Shown in pieces: positions 32,020 to 64,000 of a stretch of 64,000 nt of DNA. Origin of the DNA: Bacteroidales bacterium (GTDB lineage Bacteria; Bacteroidota; Bacteroidia; Bacteroidales; WCHB1-69); the NCBI GenBank assembly GCA_017549765.1, contig JAFYNM010000003.1:1-64000 (forward strand). The letters are read 5' to 3'. The translations under genes were made by a program, and so were the position numbers. Within the stretch, counting starts at the first letter, position 1. Every line of letters starts with the position of its first letter. The notes under the pieces are model-generated. The model searched no databases and had not been told where the DNA came from. It worked only from the letters and a program-made list of their open reading frames with translations.

Positions 32020-32492
32020 ATCCGCACCAATTTTGAAATTGCTTTTTCCGTGCCAAAGAAATACTGGAATGTGATTCCATGCATATACTTGAGTCTTTCC
32101 AAAAAGACTTCCATATCTATATTATGCTCCAATAGATTACGAACCTGAACACCCACCTTGTCATTTGCAATGGGGCCATAGACCACATCATAGGAATGAA
32201 CATTAATGTCTTGATCATTTGTCCTGTTTTTCAAGATGAACTCTGCCCATTCTTTTGAATACTCGTCAAATCTTAAAAAGGACAATGTGCCATCCGTCAA
32301 CAAATCCTCCTCAAATTGGTATGGAAGAACCACAGGTGCAGCCTTGAACTGCAAGGCTTTAAATATTGCTAATTTATACGCTTGTTCATAATTGTCTGAC
32401 AAATAAAAGCCTTTGCCAAAATCCTTTCCCTTATGGGATTTTGACAAATCAATGACATCAAAATCAGCATATGTTCCGTGATACAGCCTCAT
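32016..32492 (-). CDS. DUF3990 protein, probable ADP-ribosyltransferase-fold toxin
   Basis: A 158-residue protein starting LYHGTYADFDVIDLSKSHKGKDFGKGFYLSDNYEQAYKLA. The HGT near the N-terminus and the GKGFYLSDNYEQA block are typical of the ADP-ribosyltransferase superfamily, and the whole fits DUF3990. Such proteins are toxin-like. It overlaps both neighbours by 4 bases, so the three genes are translationally coupled. Target and active-site details were not established. Confidence 0.7.
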   Translation of the reverse strand: MRLYHGTYADFDVIDLSKSHKGKDFGKGFYLSDNYEQAYKLAIFKALQFKAAPVVLPYQFEEDLLTDGTLSFLRFDEYSKEWAEFILKNRTNDQDINVHSYDVVYGPIANDKVGVQVRNLLEHNIDMEVFLERLKYMHGITFQYFFGTEKAISKLVRI

Positions 32493-58726: not shown

Positions 58727-58939
58727 ATGAGAAAACCAATCATCCCCATAACCGCCCTCCTGCTGTTAGCCGCCCTGACTACTTCCTGCAACCGGACAGG
58801 CTGCCAGTGCTACGTCAAGAGCGACATCGCCCACACCCATGCGATCTTCGAAGACGACAACATGAGCGAAGAAGACTGCATGGCCAAGGAAGCAGAGCTG
58901 AACGACGAGGTCAGCATGGACGTTTACCGGTGCCGCTAG
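58727..58939 (+). CDS. Small lipoprotein
   Basis: A 70-residue protein with a lipobox (LLLLAALTTSC, Cys about 21). The mature part is acidic with four Cys (GCQCYVKSD, EEDC, YRCR), which may form disulfides. It is third in the sigma-factor operon, 30 bases after the membrane protein. Function unknown. Confidence 0.65.
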   Translation: MRKPIIPITALLLLAALTTSCNRTGCQCYVKSDIAHTHAIFEDDNMSEEDCMAKEAELNDEVSMDVYRCR

Positions 58940-58942
58940 AGG

Positions 58943-58997
58943 CTTACAGATTTTCCAAGATATACTTCGCTAACTTGTTATAGAGGTAGGTGCGGGT
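58943..58997. repeat. Left copy of 55-bp direct repeat (fragment of S9 peptidase 3' end)
   Basis: It matches 63336-63390 at 54 of 55 positions. Read on the minus strand it encodes TRTYLYNKLAKYILENL-stop, exactly the end of the S9 peptidase at the right copy; upstream sequence then differs. It marks the left border of the AT-rich island. Confidence 0.9.
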
Positions 58998-59106
58998 GAT
59001 CTCTTGCTCTTTCATTCATTATCTTTTGCCATACAACTTCTGTAATCAAAGAATTGCCATCCAAAAAGATACACAAATTGTGTCTATATTGGATATTGTT
59101 ATCTTG

Positions 59107-59136
59107 TTGATAATGAGCTTTCATTGTCTATTTTTG
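59107..59136 (+). promoter_or_regulatory. Promoter of the SPFH operon
   Basis: TTG at 59107-59109, a 19-base spacer, and TATTTTTG at 59129-59136. A 13-base palindrome ACACAAATTGTGT at 59071-59083 lies about 25 bases further up and may be an operator. Confidence 0.7.
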
Positions 59137-59165
59137 CGTTTCGTGAATTGAAAAACAGAATGCAT

Positions 59166-60275
59166 ATGGCAATAATTGATGTTGTAAAATGTGAGATGAA
59201 TGATTCGGAATTGTGCAAGAAATTCCACTCCGAAGATTTAAGGCTTGGTTCACAATTAGTTGTATATCCTTCGCAAGTAGCTATCTTTGTCAAAGGCGGA
59301 CAAATCTTTGACATGTTTGAATCAGGAACACACACCCTGAAAACCAGTAATATTCCATTACTCAACAAAATAATCAACTTGCCTTTTGGAGGGAATTCCC
59401 CTTTTCAAGCAGAGGTTTGGTTTTTAAATCTTACAGCTAAATTGGATGTAAAGTGGGGCACAATGACCCCAATCCAACTGGAAGACCCTAAATATGAGAT
59501 AATTGTCCCTGTGAGAGCTTATGGCCAATATGGAATGAAAGTAACAGATCCACAACACTTTCTAAAAACCTTGATTGGTAACATGACCTCTTTTTCTTCC
59601 GAGAAAGTCAACAGTTATTTCAAAGGGAAAATGCTTTCGCTATTAAATTCCACTCTGGCAAAGAAGATCGCCAATGATAAAATTTCCATCTTGGACATCA
59701 ACACGCATTTGGTAGATACTTCCGAGTTTTGCGAGGTGGAAATGAACAAGCAATTTAAAAAATATGGTCTTCAGTTGCTTGATTTTGCCATCATATCAAT
59801 TAATGTTCCTGAAGATGATCCGAGCATTGTCAAGTTAAAGGAGGCTAAGGACTTGGCTGCCAGACTGAAAATCACAGGAAGGGATGTTTACCAGATGGAA
59901 AGAAGTTTCGATGTTCTTGAAACTGCAGCAGGCAACGAAGGAGCGGGAGGTCAAATGATTGGCATGGGCGCAGGTATTGGTGCAGGGATAGGGCTTGGCT
60001 CCACTATGGGTAACATGACCAACCAGTTTATGAACACCAATCCCAACACTCCGCCTCCATTGCCACAGGAATCTACCTATTTCATTTATATAAATGGCCA
60101 ACAATTGAGCGGCCAAACCATGCAGAACATGGTTGTTTACATCCAAAACGGCATGATGAACGGAGACACTTTAGTTTGGCAACAAGGAATGCCACAGTGG
60201 ACAAAGGCTTCTCAAGTTCCTCAACTAGCCTCGTTGTTCAACACACAGACACCACCACCTATTCCAGCAATGTAA
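59166..60275 (+). CDS. SPFH/YdjI-like (virion-core-protein-like) protein with C-terminal GYF_2 domain
   Basis: A 369-residue protein. I place the start at MAIIDVVKCEM (59166), because the upstream TTG start would overlap the promoter. Residues about 1-235 form the SPFH/band-7-like fold of the YdjI group (LRLGSQLVVYPSQVAIFVKGGQIFDMFESG, then YEIIVPVRAYGQYGMKV). A Gly-rich stretch follows (GMGAGIGAGIGLG). The C-terminal ~60 residues are a GYF_2-like domain (YFIYINGQQLSGQ, then GMPQWTKASQVP). In Bacillus YdjI recruits PspA to membranes under stress. Here PspA is absent. First gene of a four-gene AT-rich operon. Confidence 0.82.
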   Translation: MAIIDVVKCEMNDSELCKKFHSEDLRLGSQLVVYPSQVAIFVKGGQIFDMFESGTHTLKTSNIPLLNKIINLPFGGNSPFQAEVWFLNLTAKLDVKWGTMTPIQLEDPKYEIIVPVRAYGQYGMKVTDPQHFLKTLIGNMTSFSSEKVNSYFKGKMLSLLNSTLAKKIANDKISILDINTHLVDTSEFCEVEMNKQFKKYGLQLLDFAIISINVPEDDPSIVKLKEAKDLAARLKITGRDVYQMERSFDVLETAAGNEGAGGQMIGMGAGIGAGIGLGSTMGNMTNQFMNTNPNTPPPLPQESTYFIYINGQQLSGQTMQNMVVYIQNGMMNGDTLVWQQGMPQWTKASQVPQLASLFNTQTPPPIPAM

Positions 60276-60287
60276 AATGTATTTATT

Positions 60288-60626
60288 ATGAAAAAAGGCT
60301 TGTATTTATTCGGTGCTATTTTGCTTGTTGCCAATATTTTGGTTGGCTTAATCGTCACTTCATACGAACCCTTCAACTGGATTCTTTCCAGTGTGGTTAT
60401 CATCGCTACCATCCTGCTCTTAGGATGGCTATCATCCTCGTCACTCAAGGATGCTTTCAAAATCTCCTTGTCTTTCTTATTCTCATTTCTCGGGCTGGTA
60501 GAGTACATTTTGGCCATTGTTGCCCCAAGCCAATTTGCCGACAACTGGTATCTTATTGTGATTATTGGCCTGATTATCATAGAATCCTTGTTTGTCATTG
60601 CAAGCAATCAAGCTTCAAAACATTAA
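60288..60626 (+). CDS. Small four-helix membrane protein
   Basis: A 112-residue hydrophobic protein with about four membrane segments (LFGAILLVANILVGLIV, ILSSVVIIATILLLGWL, ISLSFLFSFLGLVEYILA, WYLIVIIGLIIIESLFVIA). No motif recognised. It lies 12 bases after the SPFH gene and 18 before the zinc-ribbon gene, so it is part of the same operon. Confidence 0.7.
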   Translation: MKKGLYLFGAILLVANILVGLIVTSYEPFNWILSSVVIIATILLLGWLSSSSLKDAFKISLSFLFSFLGLVEYILAIVAPSQFADNWYLIVIIGLIIIESLFVIASNQASKH

Positions 60627-60644
60627 ATAATAAAAACAATAACT

Positions 60645-61385
60645 ATGGATGTTAAAACTATCGTTTGCCCCAATTGCGGTGCCAGTGCAACAAACTTTCA
60701 CAATTGTGAATATTGCGGTTCTTTTCTCGTGCAAAGAGCTCATGAAGATGTTGATTTAACAGACTATGTTAAATCTTCCAGCAAATATGTCAATGAAGGT
60801 ATCTTAAAGGAAGTTAAAAAGTTTATTGAGTTTGTGAAAAACAATCCAGATTCTGATTCTTCTTTAAATATATTGTACAAAGATCGTGATATTATATCTC
60901 TGGAATCAAATTCTAACCCAATTCTCATGGAAGCTTATGATTTGGAAATTCCAGGGGTTTGTATTTGTTTATTACCAGAAGAATATGAAGGTATATTAAA
61001 CAAAAAAATGACAGAACGATTTGAGAACAGCAGTTTGTACAATACATTTAAGAAAGAATCATGTTATGCGGATGACAATCGCCTTCCCTCTGAGATACCA
61101 TGGAATGAGAGTCAGTACTACGTAGATTTTGGCTTTGACCACCAAGGGGCAGCTTTAGTTGTCAGTCAATTTTTAGAAGATGTGGTTCAACTAAAATACG
61201 AATACATTAAATATAGTTTTGAGGGTCTTGAATATTCTCCAAAAGATGCTGACAACATAGATTTTAATAGTATATATTTGAATAGATTAAATACCCGTAC
61301 AACCAAGGAGAAAAAAAAGTCTTGGATATGGTATGTTGTTGCGGCAATTATACTCATAATTTACTTAATCTTAGATTTATTATAG
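60645..61385 (+). CDS. Zinc-ribbon protein with C-terminal membrane anchor
   Basis: A 246-residue protein. The N-terminus is a zinc ribbon with four Cys (Cys8, Cys11, Cys21, Cys24: CPNCG…CEYCG). The middle (about 40-210) is acidic and unassigned. The C-terminus is a basic stop (TKEKKKS) followed by one membrane helix (about 225-245). Zinc ribbon plus tail anchor is the architecture of YdjG, which in Bacillus is encoded with YdjI and PspA. Together with the SPFH gene this suggests a membrane-stress module. Confidence 0.7.
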   Translation: MDVKTIVCPNCGASATNFHNCEYCGSFLVQRAHEDVDLTDYVKSSSKYVNEGILKEVKKFIEFVKNNPDSDSSLNILYKDRDIISLESNSNPILMEAYDLEIPGVCICLLPEEYEGILNKKMTERFENSSLYNTFKKESCYADDNRLPSEIPWNESQYYVDFGFDHQGAALVVSQFLEDVVQLKYEYIKYSFEGLEYSPKDADNIDFNSIYLNRLNTRTTKEKKKSWIWYVVAAIILIIYLILDLL

Positions 61386-61425
61386 GACATTATACAAACA
61401 TTTACGTTATCAAATTCATACAATC

Positions 61426-61923
61426 ATGGTTTTACTTTCTATAGGTGTAACAGAATACACACAAATTGTATCTGTAACAATTGCATTTGTTGTGTGCATA
61501 TTCACGTGTGTCCAGATTTGGAAGAAAATAGAAATGTCACATGCTGAGCAAGTGGCAAAAATGCTGGATAAGGTGTGGTCAAATCCAGAAATGGTGAAAC
61601 TATATTATCAGATAGAGTACGGTGGCGCTGCTACGTGGTATAACGGTTCTTTTCATAATAGCGATATGGAGAAGACTATGGATGAATTTCTCCGCCAGTA
61701 CGAGTATATTATGTTACTTCGAAAGAGAGGTTTGCTTAGGAAAGGAGAATTTCATTTTTTCGAATACTACATACAACGTATTGTTAAAGATAGAGGTATG
61801 CAAAACTATTTCTGTACCATTTCTTTGATTTCCAAAAACGCCGGTCTAAAGTTTCCATACCCAAAGTTACTAAAGTATATGAAAAAGAATGGCAATGTAG
61901 ATCCCAATATATTTAAGGATTAG
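61426..61923 (+). CDS. Hypothetical protein with N-terminal membrane segment
   Basis: A 165-residue protein: one N-terminal membrane helix (about 12-31), then a soluble helical domain (VAKMLDKVWSNPEMVKLYYQIEYG…) with FLRQYEYIMLLRKRGLL. I do not recognise the family. It is the last gene of the operon, 40 bases after the zinc-ribbon gene. Confidence 0.6.
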   Translation: MVLLSIGVTEYTQIVSVTIAFVVCIFTCVQIWKKIEMSHAEQVAKMLDKVWSNPEMVKLYYQIEYGGAATWYNGSFHNSDMEKTMDEFLRQYEYIMLLRKRGLLRKGEFHFFEYYIQRIVKDRGMQNYFCTISLISKNAGLKFPYPKLLKYMKKNGNVDPNIFKD

Positions 61924-62053
61924 TTTTTCTCACGAGCCAGAAAAGATGTGTTAAACGTATTTACAATCGAAACATACAAATAGGAATTCGGTCTGTGATT
62001 TGAAAAAGAAACGATAAATTCCCATTAAAAATCAAACCGAAGGCCATTTTTTG

Positions 62054-62061
62054 TATTTTTG
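62054..62061 (+). promoter_or_regulatory. -7 element TATTTTTG upstream of the long hairpin
   Basis: A perfect TAnnTTTG match. Transcription would start near 62068 and run through the hairpin to the HTH gene at 62291. Confidence 0.65.
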
Positions 62062-62067
62062 CCACCT

Positions 62068-62290
62068 GATATTTTGTTTCACCAAACAGACGATAAATAG
62101 AATAGTAAAAGATAGATTATAGACATATTAACGGCGTTTTCGCTTTTCATCGGTCGCCCGAAATCAGGAAAATTTCAAAGGCACACCACCAAGAAAGTAG
62201 AAACGCTCACGGTTAAACCGTGGGCTTTCTTGTTTGTGGTGTGGGTCTTTCCTGAACCTCGGGCTTCAACAAAAAGTTCGCGGTTTTTTT
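62068..62290 (+). ncRNA. Candidate leader or small RNA with a 107-nt hairpin
   Basis: The core 62157-62263 folds almost end to end. CCCGA/TCGGG and TCAGGAAA/TTTCCTGA form the base, CACACCAC/GTGGTGTG and CAAGAAAG/CTTTCTTG the middle, and CACGGT/ACCGTG the tip with a TAA loop. A run of seven Ts precedes the ATG at 62291. The extents are estimates: start from the promoter, end at the T run. It could be a separate small RNA or a structured 5' leader of the HTH gene. I could not assign it to a known family. Confidence 0.6.
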
Positions 62291-62557
62291 ATGGGAACAA
62301 AGAGCACCAATTCGGGAAACATCCACATCGGCAGCCTCATCGAGGCGCAGCTCAAGCGCGACGAGCGCAGTGCTAGCTGGCTCGCCAGGCAAATTCCCTG
62401 CACCCGCAACCACGTCTATAAAATCTTCCGCAAATCCTCCATTGACTGCGCCCTGCTCCTGCGCATCTCCAAAGCCATGCAGTTCAACTTCTTCCAGTAT
62501 TATGCCGCAAACGTTGGGGAAGCCATGGCTGAACGGCTAGGAACGCATCATGACTGA
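62291..62557 (+). CDS. Small helix-turn-helix protein
   Basis: An 88-residue XRE-like DNA-binding protein. The helix-turn-helix is IGSLIEAQLKRDERSASWLARQIPCTRNHVYKIFRK, then a third helix pair (LLLRISKAMQFNFFQYYA). The start is at MGTKSTNSGN, directly behind a T run; the longer frame upstream would run through the hairpin and is rejected. It may regulate its own leader or the nearby genes. Confidence 0.75.
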   Translation: MGTKSTNSGNIHIGSLIEAQLKRDERSASWLARQIPCTRNHVYKIFRKSSIDCALLLRISKAMQFNFFQYYAANVGEAMAERLGTHHD

Positions 62558-62621
62558 GAATAAGATGGTTAATCACCCCGTTATCCCTTTACAGCCAGAT
62601 GTGGCAATTGGAAAAAATGTG

Positions 62622-62629
62622 TATTTTTG
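62622..62629 (+). promoter_or_regulatory. -7 element TATTTTTG for the MntA-HepT pair
   Basis: A TAnnTTTG match 19 bases before the ATG at 62648. Confidence 0.65.
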
Positions 62630-62647
62630 CGCAAAATTAAACACATA

Positions 62648-62950
62648 ATGAGTAGGAACGAAATTATCAGTTCAGTTAGTGAATATTTCAGGAGCCAACC
62701 CGTAGAGCGGGCTTGGATTTTCGGCTCTTATGCAAGAGGCGAAGAGACACCTGACAGCGACATTGATTTATTGGTGGTTTTTGACCATCACAATGCGGAA
62801 ATTGGTCTCATGGAATACGCACGAATGATTAACGACCTTACAAATAGGTTGGGCCGACCCGTGGATCTTGTGGAAGAGGGTACGTTATTGCCCTTTGCTG
62901 AAAAATCCGTCGAACAAGACAAACAATTAATCTATGAGAGAATCAATTAA
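62648..62950 (+). CDS. mntA: MntA-type nucleotidyltransferase antitoxin
   Basis: A 100-residue minimal nucleotidyltransferase. The active site GSYARGEETPDSDID (Gly26-Ser27, Asp38, Asp40) is the exact GSX10DXD motif of MntA, which adenylylates its HEPN partner and so blocks it. The start MSRNEIISS is chosen because the upstream TTG lies in the promoter. It overlaps hepT by 17 bases. Confidence 0.85.
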   Translation: MSRNEIISSVSEYFRSQPVERAWIFGSYARGEETPDSDIDLLVVFDHHNAEIGLMEYARMINDLTNRLGRPVDLVEEGTLLPFAEKSVEQDKQLIYERIN

Positions 62951-63287
62951 GGATCCGGGCCGCCTTGAGCATATTCTGATGGCCATAGATAACGTCTTTG
63001 AATTTCTTCAAGGGAAGAACTATGAGGACTTGGTAAATGATAAATTGCTATTTTTTGGTGTTGTGAAAAATATTGAAATCGTTGGTGAGGCCGCGAATCA
63101 TATCACCAAAGAATTACAGAATAAGCATCCTGAAATAGATTGGCCTTCTGTGGTGGGAATGCGCAATGTTCTTGTGCATGACTATTACCATATCAATCCC
63201 CGAATCGCATGGCTTACCGCCACAAAGAATCTACCCCAATTGCGTGAGCAAATTGAGGCGATTCTGGCAGATATGAATAATCAATAA
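62934..63287 (+). CDS. hepT: HepT-like HEPN RNase toxin (DUF86)
   Basis: A 117-residue helical HEPN protein. The RNase motif RX4HXY is complete: Arg77, His82, Tyr84 in MRNVLVHDYYHI. Tyr84 would be the residue modified by MntA. Paired and overlapping with mntA, it forms a standard toxin-antitoxin unit at the right end of the island. Confidence 0.85.
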   Translation: MRESIKDPGRLEHILMAIDNVFEFLQGKNYEDLVNDKLLFFGVVKNIEIVGEAANHITKELQNKHPEIDWPSVVGMRNVLVHDYYHINPRIAWLTATKNLPQLREQIEAILADMNNQ

Positions 63288-63335
63288 AACAGTTTTGTGG
63301 ATAATACGTTGAATTACGTATTATCACTCTCTCCT

Positions 63336-63390
63336 CTTACAGATTCTCCAAGATATACTTCGCTAACTTGTTATAGAGGTAGGTGCGGGT
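63336..63390. repeat. Right copy of the 55-bp direct repeat
   Basis: Partner of 58943-58997. It lies within the 3' end of the intact S9 peptidase gene and begins one base outside its stop codon. Confidence 0.9.
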
Positions 63391-64000
63391 ATTACCGCCC
63401 ATGATGAAGTGGTTCTTGTTGGGGAAGAAGAACTGGTCGTACTCTTTACCCGCCTCGTTGAGGCCTTTCACCAGCTCCATGGCATTCTGAAAGTGCACGT
63501 TGTCATCGGCAGTGCCGTGGATGAGGAAATACTTGCCGTTGAGCTGGTCGGCGTAAGTGGTCGGTGAGTTGAGGTCATAACCGTCCGGGTTCTCCTGCGG
63601 GGTGCGCATGAAACGCTCGGTGTAGATGTTGTCATAGTAGCGCCAGTTGGTCACCGGAGCCACGGAGATGGCCATCTTGAAGGCACCGTCGCCACGGAAC
63701 ATGGAGAGCGCGGAGAGATAGCCGCCAAAGCTCCAGCCCCAGATGCCGATACGGTCGCCATCCACAAAGGGCAACGTCTTGAGGTAGTTGGCCGCCGCTA
63801 TTTGGTCGATAGCTTCATATTTGCCCATCTGCTGGTAGATGACCTTCTTGAAGGCATCGCCACGAGTGGCTGTGCCGCGACCATCGACACAGACGGAGAT
63901 GTAGCCATGCTGCGCCAACATCTGATAGAAAGCCAGATCCTGGGCACTGCTGTAGGCGTTCATCACCTGCTGGCTGCCCGGACCACCGTAACAGTTCATC
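63337..64000 (-). CDS. S9 prolyl oligopeptidase/DPP IV-like peptidase, C-terminal catalytic domain (partial)
   Basis: About 221 residues of the catalytic alpha/beta hydrolase domain; the gene continues beyond the window's right edge (the first in-window Met lies inside the YGGPGSQQV motif region). The catalytic Ser is in IWGWSFGGYLS, the Asp in LIHGTADDNVH, the His in FPNKNHFIMGG. The DGRGT and FMRTPQENPDGYD segments fit dipeptidyl peptidase IV / prolyl tripeptidyl peptidase. It would act in the periplasm on proline-containing peptides, complementing DPP11. Its last 17 codons plus the stop are duplicated at 58943. Confidence 0.88.
   Translation of the reverse strand, partial: MNCYGGPGSQQVMNAYSSAQDLAFYQMLAQHGYISVCVDGRGTATRGDAFKKVIYQQMGKYEAIDQIAAANYLKTLPFVDGDRIGIWGWSFGGYLSALSMFRGDGAFKMAISVAPVTNWRYYDNIYTERFMRTPQENPDGYDLNSPTTYADQLNGKYFLIHGTADDNVHFQNAMELVKGLNEAGKEYDQFFFPNKNHFIMGGNTRTYLYNKLAKYILENL

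Follow-up and report, generated by a model that had tools for sequence, protein, structure and literature searches.

We analysed a window of 64,000 nucleotides from a Bacteroidales bacterium (assembly GCA_017549765.1, contig JAFYNM010000003.1, positions 1 to 64,000), in which an AT-rich island of 4338 bp (58998..63335) lies between the 3' end of an S9 peptidase gene and a second copy of that same gene end. The evidence points to a foreign AT-rich segment of 4.3 kb that probably entered the final codons of the peptidase gene in one recent insertion, without a dedicated recombinase of its own. The genome (G000) is a draft of 36 contigs and the island is located on a contig of 295 kb (C10); all genomes used in the island comparisons are drafts as well, the results rest on assemblies, and distances calculated over 55 bp are coarse.

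The island is bounded by a direct repeat in which bases 58943-58997 and 63336-63390 are identical at 54 of 55 positions, reproducing the coordinates, orientation and identity given in an initial annotation made from the letters alone. The number of such pairs expected by chance in the 295-kb contig is about 6e-21, and a pattern search with 43 of the repeat bases, allowing at most 3 mismatches, found two sites only in the 36-contig draft. The right copy (63336..63390, minus strand) is the working end of the peptidase gene, whose C-terminal 220 codons occupy 63337..63999 on the minus strand (PF00326, E 1.4e-54) and whose 775-aa open frame continues past the window. The left copy (58943..58997, minus strand) is a relic of this end, consisting of 17 codons, the stop and 1 base, and shows a native junction to the neighbour gene, which encodes a 70-aa lipoprotein-like protein (58727..58939, plus strand) and has its stop 4 bases from the stop of the left copy. 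The initial annotation had assigned the two copies in this way, the right one as the natural gene end and the left one as a repeat of its final 17 codons and stop, and both assignments were verified. It had also noted a lower GC content between the copies, and this interval indeed has 38.6% GC, where the contig averages 51.7% (sd 3.0); none of 581 same-size windows along the 295 kb has a lower value, which makes it the contig's most AT-rich stretch of 4.3 kb.

A protein search of 35 relatives from the same genus identified a full and close peptidase orthologue in 29 of them and a truncated one in G007. The comparison with the relative G011, to which the contig is collinear over ~190 kb with gaps (77-93% identity), provides the empty one-copy site that the initial annotation had proposed to look for: G011 has one peptidase end, followed directly by the left-flank neighbour gene of the window and the same following genes. 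In G011 coordinates the left arm of the alignment reaches 32330 and the right one starts at 32277, placing both copies on the same 54 bases, in line with the initial annotation, in which DNA entered at the peptidase 3' end and the gene remained complete. The convergent stop codons of the peptidase and neighbour genes are 4 bases apart here and 5 in G011, so an insertion lacking a repeat would nearly always disrupt one of the two genes.

Since the G011 site is empty, both copies map to the same 54 bases and G011 is devoid of the island, the insertion is placed after the split between the two genomes. The copies differ from each other at 1 of 54 bases and each differs from G011 at 8, which indicates that the duplication postdates this split, barring gene conversion; on these sequence comparisons the insertion appears recent, unless conversion has homogenised the copies. 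Of 30 gene ends in the genus (that of this genome counted; G033 out of register), 23 carry GAG at the codon that differs, as in the right copy, and 3 carry GAA, as in the left one, and because of this majority the left copy looks like the changed one. The rarity of the cargo, measured across 80 genomes including this one, points the same way: a zinc-ribbon-like island protein was found in this genome only and a 165-aa protein in 3 genomes (this one among them), G011 having neither, and loss of the island from G011 is a poorer reading than gain here. Differences from G011 (8 in the last 54 nt, 47 in the preceding 546 nt) were too few for a test of whether the peptidase end is of foreign, mosaic origin. 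The distance separating the peptidase from the following shared gene, a peptidase S46, varies, at 84, 373, 2992, 4556, 5942, 6563, 7858 and 14662 bp in the 8 genomes whose fetched stretch covers both genes.

The same contig carries a second island outside the window (C10:234862-237229), of 2.07 kb and 35.1% GC with two genes, which, by family matches, has guaA on one side and an ABC transporter gene on the other. Its repeat is 151 bp long (150 of 151 identical) and covers the first 13 codons of a gene for a 68-aa lipoprotein-like protein together with the region upstream of that gene, and a foreign 147-aa protein in the island begins with the same 13 residues. Among the 21 loci compared, this site is empty with one copy in G005 and G062; in the remaining 19 the alignment covers guaA and stops no more than ~50 bases past it, and these are uninformative. 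The repeats of the two islands are unrelated, their best local match of 13/16 bases being within chance, with a score reached by 16% of 500 shuffles. A further, independent AT-rich insert, of 4.44 kb and 38.4% GC, occupies the same peptidase end in G035 (L128), bounded by a 360-bp repeat, 95% identical, made of 29 nt of the gene, the stop and 328 nt beyond. The cargo of this G035 insert includes DUF2752 and TM2-domain proteins.

A third form of repeated peptidase end was observed in G026 (L117), where the last 76 codons plus stop are copied ~1 kb downstream and fused to an internal piece of the gene. This second copy lies ~0.75-1.2 kb past the peptidase and has an internal deletion, its pieces match the full gene at 86% and 91% identity, and it is a second peptidase in decay (pseudogene) and no short end. 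Repeated ends were thus present in 3 of 30 genus loci (own, G035 and G026; own plus 29 relatives, with at least 5 kb downstream in 21 of the 31 fetched loci), and in none of 78 testable loci from a named-genome set of 80, five of which had matches of 18-38 nt only; 6 of these 80 genomes belong to the same genus and are partly the same genomes. Palindromic short repeats of the GACGCTTCCAAGCGTC type were also seen right after the peptidase stop (L117, L108, L109 and other genus loci), sometimes in tandem.

To place these repeats against a background, 1.43 Mb of genus DNA (0.79 Mb from this genome) was scanned for direct repeats of at least 40 nt at 90% identity and a gap of 0.5-20 kb, the relatives' loci being those chosen around the peptidase gene. 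Only 3 of the 19 pairs recovered bound inserts at least 15 GC points under their flanks, two on the island contig and one in G035, with a G020 pair coming near (14 points). Repeat-bounded AT-rich inserts are therefore a minority class, yet a recognisable one. A hot spot at the peptidase end is not claimed, because the relatives' loci were chosen around this gene; with two such islands already in 295 kb, another in 1 of 29 relatives is uncompelling.

In the explanation we favour, 55 bp of host sequence would have been duplicated on entry, so that the peptidase retained its full end on one side and a relic stayed beside the native neighbour, the cargo being a passenger. Most likely, a circular DNA that contained a short stretch of the peptidase end would have integrated into the chromosome by a single RecA crossover; alternatively, linear DNA could have been captured by a homology-facilitated or template-switch event. 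The length of the duplicated host sequence varies between events (55, 151 and 360 bp), and such a repeat pattern is, to our knowledge, unlike any known transposon target duplication. Because the repeats of the two islands of this genome are unrelated and repeat lengths range from 55 to 360 bp, they are also unlike an attachment core. ComEC is present in the genome (and was matched in 10 of 14 control genomes) and no Ku was found in it; the presence of the former and the absence of the latter from the matches are compatible with capture and prove nothing.

Comparable events have been described in other bacteria. In a test of homology-facilitated illegitimate recombination in E. coli, 56 of 60 clones showed a partial duplication of the homologous locus by diagnostic PCR, and the duplications, of 109-950 bp in the 14 that were sequenced, were explained by a single crossover of a circle (PMC3240628). 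For displaced effector genes of Vibrio cholerae a one-anchor model has been proposed (PMC5361080). The island resembles what these sources describe in the variable-length host patch that is duplicated, the foreign DNA between the copies and the displaced gene end, whereas those cases are laboratory transfers or the displacement of toxin modules, and here the step is inferred (PMC3240628; PMC5361080). In four data sets from E. coli, S. aureus and S. pyogenes, direct repeats have also been reported, flanking 10-18% of the small variable segments (PMC2884548). Those segments are likewise short accessory stretches at one site, with a base repeat and an empty site elsewhere, but 66-94% of their repeats are under 30 bp, in contrast to the 55, 151 and 360 bp found here, and each repeat here contains part of a host gene (PMC2884548). 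The island has the marks of such a segment, namely a repeat at both ends and an empty one-copy site in G011. As repeat-bounded variable segments have already been described, the kind of event is known and the island is a further instance of it. Literature searches on integrase-less repeat-bounded islands and on Bacteroidales transformation with illegitimate recombination gave nothing relevant among the papers listed.

Integrase-type genomic islands at gene 3' ends also have a rebuilt gene end, a direct repeat and an empty site. Under site-specific integration the 55 bp would represent two attachment sites, and the integrase would have acted in trans or since been lost. The island shares with this type the rebuilt end (17 codons and stop in both copies), the direct repeat and the empty site in G011, but differs from it in that no recombinase was found inside and that the repeats are unrelated within the genome and of variable length. 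Scans of the seven island proteins against Pfam, NCBIfam and PHROGs gave no recombinase family, in agreement with the initial annotation, which had seen no integrase in the island. Three tyrosine recombinase matches elsewhere in the genome would suit an enzyme acting in trans, but all of them are on contigs other than that of the island; likewise, among the matches listed for 18 genus relatives with a full peptidase end (of 23 searched for recombinases, 12 further genus relatives being left out), none is on the peptidase contig. An integrase acting at a fixed core is therefore unsupported, with no recombinase found in the island, the genome's own three on other contigs and island repeats that are unlike each other, and we consider site-specific integration unlikely. 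The resemblance to integrase elements at tRNA ends that the initial annotation had drawn is not supported, given that no recombinase was found inside and the genome's three matches are on other contigs, and given the unrelated repeat of the second island and the varying extent of the repeats. A palindrome at 63300 (10-bp arms, 6-bp spacer) was rejected as a recombination site, since the contig contains 40 such perfect repeats with spacers of 3-10, 13 of them with a spacer of 6.

The fallback of the initial annotation, in which the left copy is the last remnant of a tandem second peptidase gene, gains from G026, whose corresponding site does hold a decayed further copy. Nevertheless, the G011 site is empty, the left copy is 98% identical and natively joined to the neighbour gene, and the island contains no other convincing piece of the peptidase: the best other blastn match has an E of 0.38, and the best tblastx matches (E 0.008 and 0.015) are antisense, over the stretch of an HTH-like gene, and were taken as chance. 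A tandem duplication is thus very unlikely. A false join at the repeat during assembly, which a draft in 36 contigs might invite, is extremely improbable, because both flanks track G011 over ~190 kb with gaps, the two copies differ at one base, and a second similar island exists on the contig and another in G035.

Several observations weigh against capture without a recombinase, and two of them at the same time favour site-specific integration. The last 29 nt plus stop are common to the three repeated genus ends (own, G035 and G026), as a fixed site would give, although the extent of the repeats differs and that of G026 belongs to a pseudogene, and two genomes from other families of the order (G037:C52 and G039:C96) carry a gene for a tyrosine recombinase, which may be an ordinary chromosomal Xer gene, 0.7-0.9 kb past the peptidase orthologue. 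Neither a donor nor a circle was found, the island DNA having no match in plasmids or phages, and the zinc-ribbon-like, HTH-like and SPFH proteins having no confirmed relatives in viral contigs. Searches with the peptidase-end pattern gave 0 matches in viral contigs, and the 165-aa protein had no match in phages; the SPFH protein matched 25 plasmid records, every one at less than 60% identity. Furthermore, of 8 indel junctions compared between the contig and G011, overlapping arms and a repeat are present only at the peptidase, and most insertions here would therefore take another route. To these add that a donor and a recipient origin of the repeat are not distinguishable on 55 bp, and that the genomes concerned are drafts.

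The cargo of the island is encoded entirely on the plus strand, and its content matches the SPFH module, RNA with HTH gene and MntA-HepT pair named in the initial annotation. It begins with a 370-aa protein with SPFH (Band_7_1) and GYF_2 domains (59163..60275, Pfam), a hydrophobic 112-aa protein with no family match (60288..60626) and the 246-aa protein found in this genome only, whose zinc-ribbon-like start is under the curated cut-off (60645..61385). This SPFH/zinc-ribbon group is, we presume, reminiscent of the Bacillus ydjGHI envelope-stress genes. The 165-aa protein (61426..61923), with no function assigned, is followed by a long-hairpin RNA (62134..62295) and an 88-aa HTH-like protein (62291..62557) with no Pfam family over cut-off, a G027 relative of which exceeds the HTH_26 cut-off. 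Relatives of the 165-aa protein were seen near the same RNA and HTH-like gene in G016:C99 (L233) and G020:C172 (L234), and the three may travel jointly.

The last two genes encode a minimal, MntA-like nucleotidyltransferase (62648..62950; PF01909 over cut-off, NCBIfam MntA 57.3 bits for a cut-off of 60) and a HepT-like protein (62934..63287; PF01934 over cut-off, NCBIfam HepT 37 bits for a cut-off of 60). The pair is similar to MntA-HepT type VII toxin-antitoxin systems in being adjacent and overlapping, with both Pfam families over cut-off, but differs from the named systems in staying under their NCBIfam cut-offs. In PADLOC the nucleotidyltransferase was the sole island match, to single-gene models. 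In G004 (L111), an MntA-HepT-like pair in opposite orientation, ~58% and ~50% identical, is located 21 bp past the peptidase stop and is followed by tandem, mutually repeated RhuM-family genes.

The RNA forms a single long interrupted hairpin that extends to a T run, where the HTH-like gene has its start codon, and it belongs to a dispersed, strongly covarying family with members of ~163 nt. An alignment of five related copies contains 54 pairs, 16 of them with compensatory changes, and the covariance model built from it found matches in 36 of 40 genus genomes (at most 13 per genome) and, with stricter filters, in 25 of 80 genomes across the order, this one included (at most 21 per genome). 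In an alignment of 31 matches (30 distinct) taken from 30 fetched loci, one per genome (L261-L290), 93.3% of the cells are paired and 224 double changes occur (80.1% and 67 after shuffling), values that come from sequences fitted to the model and are biased towards it; slid controls pair at 37-47%. A same-strand frame of at least 80 aa starts at most 150 nt past the RNA in 22 of the 25 loci with room for one, compared with 8 of 30 on the divergent side. Ten of the proteins encoded downstream were scanned; among them are an Eco57I-type methylase and PLD/helicase, AAA, radical SAM, Fib_succ_major, phage-collar-domain and HTH_26 proteins, and two match nothing.

Judging from this sequence context, we read the RNA as a putative cis-acting leader of accessory genes. 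Rfam 15 gave no family at gathering threshold for the island copy or for the copies in 20 further loci. A literature search for structured RNAs upstream of HTH genes in Bacteroidetes found no paper, but a broader search listed surveys (among them PMC2864571), so the RNA is not claimed to be unpublished. This genome has only one other match, a weak one on contig C23, and G035 has just one, on a contig other than that of its peptidase island; since these matches lie off the island contigs, the RNA is not the mover of these islands. It constitutes a separate lead, as a covarying, dispersed element that precedes accessory genes in the genus and part of the order.

Taken as capture, the island would be a base-exact case in which accessory genes joined a chromosome next to a gene that stayed intact, without a recombinase of their own; this contig offers a second case and a relative a third. 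This route of entry would escape island finding based on integrases, and the repeats make the capture model testable via circles. A further reading, to which we assign little probability, is that such islands are mobile units that require no mobiliser, each with a short copy of a host gene end, here that of the peptidase, as its address. If this were true, they would exit as circles via their own repeats and re-enter by a single crossover any strain that has the gene, the gene being rebuilt each time.

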